NCBI RefSeq assembly: GCF_036246005.1 | Contig: NZ_CP109171.1 | Location: forward strand, 6,498,001-6,562,000 | DNA from: Streptomyces sp. NBC_01723 | GTDB taxonomy: Bacteria > Actinomycetota > Actinomycetes > Streptomycetales > Streptomycetaceae | Length of the DNA: 64,000 nucleotides | Direction: 5' to 3' | Shown here: positions 55,118 to 57,491 of the stretch, in pieces | How the letters are laid out: each line of letters begins with the position of its first letter | How positions within the stretch are numbered: the first letter of the stretch is position 1 | The notes under the pieces: generated by a model | Seen by the model: only the letters and a program-made list of their open reading frames with translations | Databases searched by the model: none | What the model was told of the DNA's origin: nothing | Made by a program: the position numbers and the translations under genes

Positions 55118-55164
55118 CGCCGGGCGGTGGGCGGCCCGCGCCCGGGGCCCGCGCCGAAAACCCG

Positions 55165-55194
55165 TTGCCCGCCCGGCGCGCGGCCGCCTAGCGT
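55165..55194 (+). promoter_or_regulatory. promoter of the resistance leader transcript
   Basis: TTGCCC at 55165-55170 and TAGCGT at 55189-55194 with an 18-bp spacer fit a housekeeping-type Streptomyces promoter. The start of transcription is predicted at about 55201-55202, that is, on the GTG of the leader peptide, which makes that peptide leaderless. Confidence 0.6.
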
Positions 55195-55201
55195 CACCTG
55201 C

Positions 55202-55315
55202 GTGGCAGCTTTCAACGCGATCTTCAACTCCGGTCTCGGCCGGGGCTGCACGTACTCCATCAGGATGCGTCGTGGCCCCGGAGCCCTGACCGGCCCGGGG
55301 TCCCCCCGCCGCTGA
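55202..55315 (+). CDS. 37-residue leader peptide of the lrm-type methyltransferase gene
   Basis: The peptide begins GTG and reads MAAFNAIFNSGLGRGC..., with the basic run Ile-Arg-Met-Arg-Arg at residues 20-24 and a Gly/Pro/Arg tail before TGA. It has no ribosome site and seems to start at the 5' end of the transcript. Erm genes are often controlled by such peptides, in which a macrolide-bound ribosome stalls at Arg-X-Arg type or hydrophobic motifs. The frame is open 75 bp further upstream, but that part lies before the promoter. Function is inferred from position and motif. Confidence 0.7.
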   Translation: MAAFNAIFNSGLGRGCTYSIRMRRGPGALTGPGSPRR

Positions 55316-55440
55316 GGCACGTCACGCGCTGACGCACGTCTCCCACCCGCGGCGGGGCTGAGCCTCCGCGATCTCCTTTCGCCTTCGTCTTCCGGTCGGG
55401 GCCTTCGGCTGCCCTTTTCCCCTCCACGGAAGACAAAGGA
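55304..55440 (+). promoter_or_regulatory. candidate translational attenuator of lrm, with Shine-Dalgarno sequestration
   Basis: Stem A pairs CCCCGCCGC (55304-55312, over the end of the leader peptide) with GCGGCGGGG (55349-55357). Stem B pairs GTCTTCC (55387-55393) with GGAAGAC (55428-55434), and TCCTTT (55374-55379) with AAAGGA (55435-55440), which is the ribosome-binding site of the methyltransferase gene. Thus the site would be closed unless the RNA refolds. How ribosome stalling would open stem B was not worked out. Confidence 0.6.
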
Positions 55441-55449
55441 CCGCAGGCC

Positions 55450-56229
55450 ATGGCCCGCCCCACCCAGCGTGCCCGCACGCTCTCGCAGAACTTCCTCGCC
55501 GACCGCGCCACCGCCGACCGTGTCGCCCGGCTCGCCGCGCCCGACAGCCGGCACCCTCCGCTCCTGCTCGAAGTGGGCGCCGGTCAGGGCGCCCTCACCG
55601 AGCCGCTGGCCCGCCGCAGCCGGGAACTGCGCGCCTACGAGATCGATCCCCGGCTCCTGCCGGGGCTCCGCGCCCGTTTCGCGCACACCCCCCACGTCCG
55701 CGTCGTCGCCGGTGACTTCCTCGCCGCGCGGCCGCCGCGCACCCCGTTCGCCGTCGCCGGGAACGTGCCCTTCTCGCGCACCGCGGACATCGTGGACTGG
55801 TGCCTCACGGCTCCCGCGCTCACCCACGCCACCTTGATCACGCAGCTGGAGTACGCCCGCAAACGCACCGGTGACTACGGTCGCTGGACGCTGCTGACGG
55901 TCCGGACCTGGCCGTGCCACGAGTGGCGCCTGGTGGGCAGGGTGGGCCGGTACCGCTTCCGCCCGGCGCCGCGCGTCGACGCCGGGATCCTCCGCCTCGA
56001 ACGCCGCCCCACCCCGCTGCTCACCGGCGCCGCCCGCCGGAGCTGGGACGACCTGGTCGAGCTGGGCTTCTCGGGGGTCGGCGGCTCGCTGCACGCGTCC
56101 CTGCGGCGGGCCCGCCCGGCCCGGCGCGTGGACGCCGCGTTCCGGGCAGCACGGCTCGACCCGCGCGTGCTGGTGGGCGAGGTCCCGCCCGCGGCGTGGC
56201 TGCGGCTGCACGAGGTGCTGGCGCCGTGA
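55450..56229 (+). CDS. lrm: Erm-family 23S rRNA adenine N6-methyltransferase, Lrm/Erm(O)-like
   Basis: The protein has 259 residues. It opens [23 protein letters not shown], typical of Erm/KsgA enzymes; the SAM site is [15 protein letters not shown], followed by YEIDPRL and VVAGDFL; the catalytic motif IV is [10 protein letters not shown] (N-x-P-F). Erm enzymes methylate A2058 of 23S rRNA and block macrolide, lincosamide and streptogramin B binding. A glycosyltransferase gene of the mgt type lies 59 bp downstream, the same pair known as lrm-mgt in S. lividans. Whether it mono- or dimethylates cannot be told here. Confidence 0.9.
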
Positions 56230-56252: not shown

Positions 56253-56282
56253 TTGCACGAGACGTCTCGTCTCGCGTACGGT
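56253..56282 (+). promoter_or_regulatory. promoter of mgt with 14-bp palindrome in the spacer
   Basis: TTGCAC at 56253-56258 and TACGGT at 56277-56282 are 18 bp apart, and the ATG lies 6 bp after the -10 box, so the message should be leaderless. ACGAGACGTCTCGT at 56257-56270 is a perfect palindrome overlapping the -35 box and spacer, the typical place for a TetR-type repressor site. Confidence 0.6.
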
Positions 56283-56288
56283 CGGCGC

Positions 56289-57491
56289 ATGACCAGTCCC
56301 GCGCACATCGCCATGTTCTCCATCGCCGCCCACGGCCACGTGAACCCCAGCCTGGAGGTGATCCGCGAGCTCGTCGCGCGAGGGCACCGGGTGACGTACG
56401 CGATCCCGCCGCTCCTCGCGGGGAAGGTCGCCGAGGCGGGGGCCGAACCCAAGCTCTGGGACAGCACGCTGCCCGGCCCCGACGCCGACCCGGAGGCATG
56501 GGGGAGCACCCTGCTGGACAACGTGGAGCCGTTCCTGGACGACGCCATCCAGTCGCTCCCACAGCTCGCCGAGGCGTACGAGGGCGACGAACCGGACCTC
56601 GTCCTGCACGACATCGCCTCCTACACGGCCCGCGTCCTCGGCCACCGCTGGGACGTGCCGGTGGTCTCCCTGTCGCCCTGCATGGTCGCCTGGGAGGGGT
56701 ACGAGCAGGAGGTCGCCGAGCCGATGTGGGAGGAGCCGCTGAAGACCGAGCGCGGCCAGGCGTACTACGCCCGCTTCCGGGCCTGGCTGGAGGAGAACGG
56801 GATCACCACTCACCCCGACCCCTTCGTCGGCCGCCCCGAGCGCTCCCTGGTGCTGATCCCCAAGGCCCTCCAGCCCAACGCCGAGCGGGTCGACGAGACG
56901 ACGTACACCTTCGTCGGCGCCTGCCAGGGCGACCGGACCGCCGAGGGCGACTGGACGCGCCCCGAGAGCGCGGAGAAGGTCGTGCTGGTCTCCCTCGGGT
57001 CCGCCTTCACCAAGCAGCCCGGTTTCTACCGGGAGTGCGTCAAGGCCTTCGGTGAGCTGCCCGGCTGGCACACGGTGCTCCAGATCGGCCGGCACGTCGA
57101 CCCGGCCGAGCTGGGCGAGGTGCCGGACCACGTGGAAGTGCGGACCTGGGTACCGCAGTTGGCGGTCCTCCAGCAGGCCGACCTGTTCGTCACCCACGCG
57201 GGCGCCGGCGGCAGCCAGGAGGGCCTGGCGACCGCCACGCCGATGATCGCCGTACCGCAGGCCGCGGACCAGTTCGGCAACGCCGGCATGCTCCAGGGGC
57301 TCGGTGTCGCCCGGCAGCTCGACACCGAGGAGGCCACCGCCGAAGCGCTGCGCACCGCCGCCCTCGCCCTGGTCGACGACCCTGAGGTGGCCCGGCGCCT
57401 CAAGGAGATCCAGGGCGGGATGGCCCACGAGGGCGGCACCCGGCGGGCCGCCGACCTGATCGAGGAGCGACTGGCCGCCGCCAGGGCCTGA
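56289..57491 (+). CDS. mgt: macrolide glycosyltransferase (GT1 family, Mgt/OleD-like)
   Basis: The protein has 400 residues. The start [20 protein letters not shown] (with the catalytic His in AAHGH) and the C-terminal nucleotide-sugar signature [27 protein letters not shown] ... [10 protein letters not shown] follow OleD and the S. lividans Mgt very closely. The enzyme inactivates macrolides by adding glucose from UDP-glucose to the desosamine 2'-OH. No Shine-Dalgarno sequence precedes the ATG; a separate leaderless promoter is proposed. It complements target protection by Lrm. Confidence 0.94.

Follow-up and report, generated by a model that had tools for sequence, protein, structure and literature searches.

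A conserved Arg-X-Arg leader ORF as the probable drug sensor upstream of erm(O) in Streptomyces

Introduction

Inducible Erm resistance is often thought to originate in soil actinomycetes, and the erm(O) locus of Streptomyces sp. NBC_01723 raises the question of what, in the short region ahead of such a gene, could sense a macrolide and pass the signal on. We analyzed a stretch of 64,000 nucleotides around this locus, called the window below. Here an Erm(O)-type 23S rRNA A2058 N6-methyltransferase is encoded at 55450-56229 (NCBIfam NF000087, 505.5 bits with a cut-off of 450), and the next gene is that of a macrolide glycosyltransferase (56289-57491). Ahead of erm(O) is a 37-codon ORF at 55202-55315, beginning with GTG at 55202 and ending with a stop codon at 55313-55315; this ORF, the promoter elements before it, the RNA segments discussed below, and erm(O) are all on the + strand. 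Its translation in the window is VAAFNAIFNSGLGRGCTYSIRMRRGPGALTGPGSPRR, and the leader is without a match in NCBIfam, Pfam, and Rfam. We find that this leader ORF is probably the drug sensor for erm(O), since an Arg-X-Arg motif is kept while the peptide around it drifts, and this motif sits where a stalled ribosome could flip an RNA switch.

A WblC-type promoter and a leaderless-type start

The earlier note had placed a promoter, TTGCCC-18-TAGCGT-7-GTG, directly in front of a 37-codon ORF carrying R21-M22-R23-R24 upstream of the Erm-type gene, and direct reading together with the ORF listing confirmed this arrangement. The promoter occupies 55165-55194, with TTGCCC at 55165-55170 and TAGCGT at 55189-55194, and is found again in relatives. 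A strict sigma-70 scan returned 0 sites and left this promoter uncalled. We also shuffled the 420 nt upstream of erm with dinucleotide composition retained and counted sequences having the promoter, a start 6-7 nt behind it, and a 25-45-codon ORF containing R-X-R; none of 3000 shuffles reproduced this combination.

Three nucleotides upstream of the -35 lies GAAAAC (55156-55161), which fits the published WblC motif, described in the available text of PMC7157823 as GAAAWY located 3 nt upstream of the -35. The spelling GAAAAC-CCG-TTGCCC in the window is what would be expected of a WblC/WhiB7 regulon promoter. Among the 75 leaders compared below, GAAAWY is exact at this position in 51, and the looser G[A/T]AAWY is present in 61. 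The same source, as available, lists SCO6089, the Erm(O)-type gene of S. coelicolor, as a WblC target and member of this regulon, whose box next to the -35 the erm(O) leader shares (PMC7157823); among the matches listed in our literature search, SCO6089 was found only there.

The distance from the -10 to the start codon is close to constant, at 7 nt in 71 of the 75 leaders and 6 nt in the other 4, and the start codon is GTG in 64 and ATG in 11. This spacing fits the leaderless-type start that had been proposed from the window and would put the first transcribed base on the GTG or no more than 1 nt away from it.

The leader is conserved together with erm(O)

A contig scan yielded 94 relatives of the Erm protein, and the best 80 of these 94 were kept, one from Kitasatospora and the remainder from Streptomyces. 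Enough upstream DNA was available for 79 (the contig of L039 begins 55 nt before erm), which together with the window gave 80 sequences. In 75/80, namely the window and 74 of the 79 relatives, a -35 and a -10 are followed after 6-7 nt by the start codon of a leader containing R-X-R, and Arg21 and Arg23 are present in all 75. ORF choice favored R-X-R where there were several candidates; exactly one R-X-R candidate per sequence existed in 75/75. Relative L072 keeps the leader with an altered -35, and L070 and L078 have a diverged leader in which R-L-R is still there. No such leader was seen upstream of erm in L081 and L082, whose Erm proteins are 55-56% identical.

An independent survey compared a leader profile with 295 Streptomyces genomes, scoring 26 candidates per genome. 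It gave 39 matches at E <= 1.1e-10, followed by weak ones from 0.0017. All 39 strong matches fall in Erm-bearing genomes, with Erm itself found in 58/295 at E <= 1e-40, and by coordinates 38 of the 39 are followed within 200 nt by an Erm(O)-like gene. The remaining match stops one base away from the end of its contig, and in the same genome Erm lies 55 nt from the end of another contig. Among Erm matches of at least 70% identity, the sole one without a leader match is a gene fragment (G193). The short ORF is therefore found directly upstream of erm and is conserved with it, as in Erm attenuators, and the comparison indicates at the sequence level that the leader ORF is functional.

Several Erm(O)-like genes in this survey are in two pieces, fragmentary, or interrupted by an internal stop (G190, G235, G193, G333, and G049), and a leader match stands in front of three of them (G190, G235, and G049). 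This suggests gene decay or assembly errors.

RNA segments that could open or hide the erm(O) Shine-Dalgarno sequence

The Shine-Dalgarno sequence of erm(O), AAAGGA (55435-55440), lies 9 nt before the ATG and in folds is covered by a hairpin (55382-55439). The 5' arm of this hairpin consists of CCTT (55382-55385) and GTCTTCCGG (55387-55395), and the 3' arm of CGGAAGAC (55427-55434) and AAGG (55436-55439). Two further segments are complementary to each other over 11 nt, with one G-U pair in the window: segment 2, GCCCTGACCGG (55283-55293), which covers codons 28-31 of the leader, and segment 3, CCGGTCGGGGC (55392-55402), whose end is 47 nt before the erm start. Segment 3 can pair with segment 2 or take part in the hairpin next to the Shine-Dalgarno sequence, TCTTCCGG..CGGAAGAC, which is exact in 64/75; in folds of the other 11 a stem proximal to the Shine-Dalgarno sequence forms with different letters. 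In the minimum-energy fold, a segment 1 (codons 10-16, 55230-55247) pairs with the region of codons 24-31. The stability of the whole region exceeds that of shuffles only to a moderate degree, with a z-score of -1.84 and 8/200 shuffles at least as stable.

The pairing of segments 2 and 3 is uninterrupted in 72 of the 75 leaders, with one mismatch each in L060, L065, and L068, and in L069 and L079 both sides have changed in a compensatory manner, giving A-U for G-C. In the diverged L070, GCTCTGACCGTCG pairs with CGACGGTCAGGGC over 13 pairs, one of them G-U. The start of the first Arg codon precedes segment 2 by 21 nt in 72/75 and by 20 nt in 2, and in L025 the motif is one codon nearer. Natural frameshifts separate a peptide-level from an RNA-level layer here: L023, L050, and L105 lose the frame right after R-X-R-R and still keep the segment 2 arm, and in L070, L078, and L108 R-L-R is in frame and the ORF stops within the arm. 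The earlier note had suggested induction at the level of translation, and the comparison supports this, since the leader also specifies an arm that, as RNA, can pair with part of the hairpin covering the erm Shine-Dalgarno sequence.

The same segments could in principle serve transcriptional attenuation, in which segment 3 would act as an intrinsic terminator, spelled GGGGCCTTCGGCTGCCCTTTT in the window, while ribosome stalling would make the antiterminator. The tlrA gene of S. fradiae is controlled in this way, by transcriptional attenuation with an antiterminator made by stalling. If segment 2 captures segment 3 kinetically, this would suit both mechanisms, and the window does have GCCCTTTT after the GC hairpin. 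The U-tract, however, is not kept among relatives, where the 8 nt after GCCC hold at most three T in 42/75, four in 27, and five or more in 6, and what is kept in place of a T-run is the stem proximal to the Shine-Dalgarno sequence. We therefore reject an intrinsic terminator as a conserved feature of these leaders and regard transcriptional attenuation as an unlikely account of erm(O) control. A simple terminator scan marked two terminator-like sites in the region, one of them on the + strand at 55352-55369.

Modeled switching by a stalled ribosome

The effect of a stalled ribosome on the proposed translational switch was modeled through the pairing probability of segments 2 and 3, P(2:3). 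In the main model, everything upstream of a point 15 nt beyond the first base of the P-site codon was barred from pairing. With the upstream RNA fully blocked in this way, mean P(2:3) peaks at 0.64 with codon 22 in the P site, where 51/75 sequences exceed 0.5, and is 0.00 from P-site codon 25 on. In the window, the values are 0.01, 0.99, 0.92, 0.19, and 0.00 for codons 20 to 24. The hairpin over the Shine-Dalgarno sequence behaves in the opposite way in the 64 sequences with the exact stem, with a mean probability of 0.32 with the ribosome stalled, 0.87 with the ribosome at the stop codon, and 0.83 without a ribosome. The result least favorable to the switching model comes from a run in which pairing past the ribosome was allowed: codon 22 is then not the optimum, with 15/75 above 0.5 as against 38/75 at codon 23, and the window gives 0.01 at codon 22.

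Accessibility of the Shine-Dalgarno sequence shifts modestly, from a mean of 0.22 with a terminating ribosome to 0.29-0.32 with a stalled one. It rises by more than 0.05 in 33-44/75 and falls in 8-11/75, depending on the 3' end chosen, and in the window it falls slightly in the shortest construct (0.30 vs 0.34) and rises in the two longer ones. A first trial with 11 sequences gave no clean switch by this measure. Because equilibrium accessibility is a weak signal, the specific stems were measured instead. Complementarity, covariation, and modeling of P(2:3) and P(3:4) agree on mutually exclusive stems, one of which covers the erm Shine-Dalgarno sequence, and this result depends on the ribosome-blocking assumption. 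We consider the stems themselves well supported, while the switching energetics in these models are unsettled.

Selection on Arg-X-Arg at the codon level

To see which layer selection acts on, codon changes were counted by parsimony on a 75-tip Erm tree, with the leaders anchored on R-X-R. The Arg codons at 21 and 23 have changed 11 and 17 times, respectively, and every change was synonymous; codon 24 shows 15 synonymous and 2 nonsynonymous changes, and codon 22, between the two invariant Arg, shows no synonymous and 16-17 nonsynonymous changes. Arg21 and Arg23 are found in 75/75, spelled by five and four different Arg codons, respectively, and residue 24 is Arg in 73/75. Eight residues occur at position 22, namely Met in 53 leaders, Val in 7, Leu in 5, Thr in 4, Lys and Arg in 2 each, and Ser and Ile in 1 each. 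In the window the motif is Arg21-Met22-Arg23-Arg24 (55262-55273), the proposed site of drug-dependent arrest.

Several controls bear on this pattern. Codons 8, 9, 12, 16, 18, and 20 have 15 to 32 nonsynonymous against 1 to 4 synonymous changes. Around the motif, none of 16 off-frame triplets is without a nonsynonymous change, and the most synonymous of them has 14 synonymous and 5 nonsynonymous changes, so that the off-frame control is not wholly flat. When the leaders were re-anchored on segment 2, R-X-R fell at the expected codon in 74/75, the exception being L025 with its motif one codon nearer. At codon 21 both the first and the third base vary, yet the residue stays Arg. Codon 23 varies in the third base only, with CG in 75/75, and could for that reason reflect a kept CG if taken by itself. 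Codons 3, 27, and 31 are likewise synonymous-rich (21/7, 10/3, and 12/1 synonymous/nonsynonymous changes). With these codons and the third-base restriction of codon 23 in view, the Arg residues give the clearest signal of this kind, though not the sole one.

Taken with the free X22 and the off-frame control, the lack of nonsynonymous change at R21 and R23 supports Arg-X-Arg, the motif singled out in the earlier note, as the selected element. The motif thus has the form of the +X+ class, Arg-X-Arg with X free and kept at the peptide level, and all the evidence combined is read as selection on the Arg-X-Arg(-Arg) peptide. The stretch after the Arg motif (codons 28-31) is kept mainly as RNA, the nucleotides of codons 28-30 themselves being almost constant. 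A part played by the two Phe-Asn repeats (AFN at residues 3-5 and IFN at residues 7-9 in the window), which had also been suggested, did not survive: residue 8 is Phe in 25/75, residue 9 is Asn in 28/75, and codon 4 has 23-27 nonsynonymous changes on the 75-tip tree. The repeats were rejected as a functional element for this poor conservation.

An arrest earlier in the leader would assign the Arg residues a smaller part. In such a scheme the drug would stop the ribosome at codons 7-9, near Asn-Ala-Ile, and R-X-R-R would only slow or secure it. P(2:3) does have a second maximum at P-site codons 7-8, with means of 0.56 and 0.60 and 45-46/75 above 0.5, and a 10-row alignment shows no variation at A6 and I7, I7 being present in 69/75 leaders. 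Codons 8 and 9, by contrast, vary freely (3/32 and 1/29 synonymous/nonsynonymous changes), codons 5-7 have so few synonymous changes (0, 0, and 3) that they may be kept as RNA, and the changes at R21 and R23 are all synonymous. We hold it to be very unlikely as the main site of arrest. As an observation in its own right, Asn-Ala-Ile at codons 5-7 (55214-55222 in the window) is largely conserved and modeled switching also occurs at codons 7-8, and a second, early arrest site in this region is possible.

The Arg codons might instead sense a shortage of arginine or Arg-tRNA, as in amino-acid attenuators, and not a drug. Arg at 75/75 for positions 21 and 23 and 73/75 for position 24 would suit this, as would the lack of Lys at these three codons, although Lys would satisfy +X+. 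The downstream gene, however, encodes a methyltransferase for macrolide resistance, the Arg residues are spelled by freely changing codons, and the free residue between the Arg is what +X+ predicts, all of which makes such sensing highly improbable. That the WblC promoter and the conserved RNA alone matter, with the ORF a by-product, fits the near constancy of codons 28-30, the third-base variation of codon 23, and the place of SCO6089 among the WblC targets in the available text of PMC7157823, but is scarcely credible. R21 remains Arg although its first as well as its third base has changed, and none of the 28 changes at R21 and R23 alters the residue, an outcome with a probability of about 1e-10 for independent changes of which a fraction of 0.44 would be synonymous by chance.

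Proposed mechanism

We propose that erm(O) is governed by a WblC-transcribed, leaderless translational attenuator with predicted drug-dependent arrest at Arg-X-Arg, and we put the probability of this reading at roughly four in five. The proposal builds on conservation, codon-level selection, complementarity, and spacing, and predicts from them the transcript start, the arrest, and the induction. Translation inhibitors would induce WblC, which would switch on the leader promoter. With a transcript beginning at the GTG, as the spacing suggests, the leader would be translated without a Shine-Dalgarno sequence. In the absence of drug, the ribosome would reach the stop codon and cover segment 2, leaving segment 3 to join the hairpin that hides the erm Shine-Dalgarno sequence. 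When a macrolide occupies the exit tunnel, the +X+ rule of ErmDL predicts an arrest with Arg21-X22 in the P site and Arg23 in the A site. Codon 22 is the expected P-site codon because Arg-X-Arg motifs block peptide bond formation in macrolide-bound ribosomes, according to the parts of PMC8298421 available. The stalled ribosome would block segment 1, and segment 2, just 3' of the ribosome, could then capture segment 3. This capture would open the hairpin and allow erm(O) to be translated, the stems involved being those that complementarity, covariation, and modeling point to.

Comparison with known attenuators and significance

Erm attenuators and Arg-Leu-Arg leaders are known. The leader ErmDL of Bacillus has an Arg-Leu-Arg arrest motif before an Erm gene and a model of RNA refolding, as proposed here, with the motif at codons 6-8, whereas in erm(O) it lies at codons 21-23 of a leaderless-type 37-codon ORF (PMC8298421, as available). 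Arrest of ErmDL by erythromycin depends only weakly on its Arg residues according to the same text (PMC8298421); this and the different motif position count against our proposal. We liken the two leaders in their working, and kinship is not implied. ErmCL and ErmBL share the leader ORF, competing stems, and a hidden methyltransferase Shine-Dalgarno sequence in the available portions of PMC10219788 and PMC11264731. They differ in having other arrest peptides, the arrest on ErmBL being at the tenth codon in the portion available of PMC8274638. Antibiotic-sensing uORFs like the proposed leader are also described in Streptomyces for are5sc and tiaA, but their products are MLV and a 9-residue peptide, they carry ribosome binding sites, and stalling takes place at the start codon, as given in the accessible text of PMC12421871.

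Among the closest known leaders is that of ermSV. Judged by score, Erm(V) is a near relative of the Erm in the window, which reaches 406 bits, below the Erm(V) cut-off of 500. Kamimiya and Weisblum reportedly described ermSV of S. viridochromogenes NRRL 2860 in 1997 as a translational attenuator induced by 14- and 16-membered macrolides. Its leader, like that proposed for erm(O), would thus be a translational attenuator of a Streptomyces erm and is probably a member of the erm(O) leader family. Among the matches listed in our literature search, there was no paper on the erm(O)/lrm leader. The leaderless start, the deep motif, and the codon-level evidence may be new, and one family member has possibly already been described. 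Arrest on ErmCL is near its ninth codon, and ErmCL and ErmBL are not known to have a WblC promoter.

We tentatively suggest, as a possibility we do not lean toward, that these leaders form a distinct class of Streptomyces drug sensors present in at least two Erm clades, with a WblC-type promoter, a leader without a Shine-Dalgarno sequence, and, as the clearest selected residues, a deep Arg-X-Arg that precedes an RNA capture arm by about 20 nt, and that the class may be drug-selective. Because drug-bound ribosomes must pass codons 8-10, the sensor may favor drugs that permit elongation, such as ketolides and 16-membered macrolides. If this is true, the leaderless start may keep the sensor working when normal initiation is impaired. 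Under the mechanism proposed above, WblC-driven transcription and translational sensing by the ribosome, two layers of the response to antibiotics, come together in one short region. The likely arrest motif is named here from natural variation alone, that is, from synonymous-only residues, a free residue between them, and natural frameshifts. The locus offers a direct test of two ideas, a leaderless ORF as drug sensor and programmed arrest at an Arg-X-Arg located beyond the first 20 codons of a leader.

Leaders of more distant Erm genes and the glycosyltransferase promoter

The second Erm clade comes from a more distant set of 13 loci whose Erm proteins are 52-58% identical. In 10 of the 13, an upstream ORF encodes Arg-Pro-Arg-X-Arg-Arg or nearly so, and nine of these ORFs follow the same type of promoter. 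R-P-R-X-R-R is found in L091, L094-L096, L098-L100, and L110, and L097 has R-P-R-A-C-R; the leader of L112 was read by eye, without a matched promoter. L092 has a 25-codon ORF with R-L-R upstream, and no leader ORF was found in L093 and L111. In 8/9 distant leaders analyzed (L094 is without it), an arm such as GGCCCTGG lies 18-20 nt downstream of the first base of the first Arg codon and can form GGCCCTGG:CCAGGGCC-type pairing over 8-11 nt with a complementary segment farther downstream; in L091 and L099 another complement scores better. Three distant examples were folded, and the Shine-Dalgarno sequence lay inside a GTCCTC..GAGGAC hairpin. We regard the R-P-R-X-R-R leaders as a second, analogous family. 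For N-terminally extended Erm proteins that are 61-65% identical, the promoter pattern found no leader in 9 loci (L083-L090 and L113; G372 and G357 lie outside the sample).

The glycosyltransferase gene behind erm(O) has a leaderless-type promoter of its own, TTGCAC-18-TACGGT-6-ATG, at 56253-56291 in the window, and the spacer of this promoter holds an operator-like palindrome, CGAGACGTCTCG. Among 78 relatives (L003-L080), 63 have an operator-like match and 59 have such a promoter ahead of an ATG. This suggests that the glycosyltransferase is under separate, repressor-type control.
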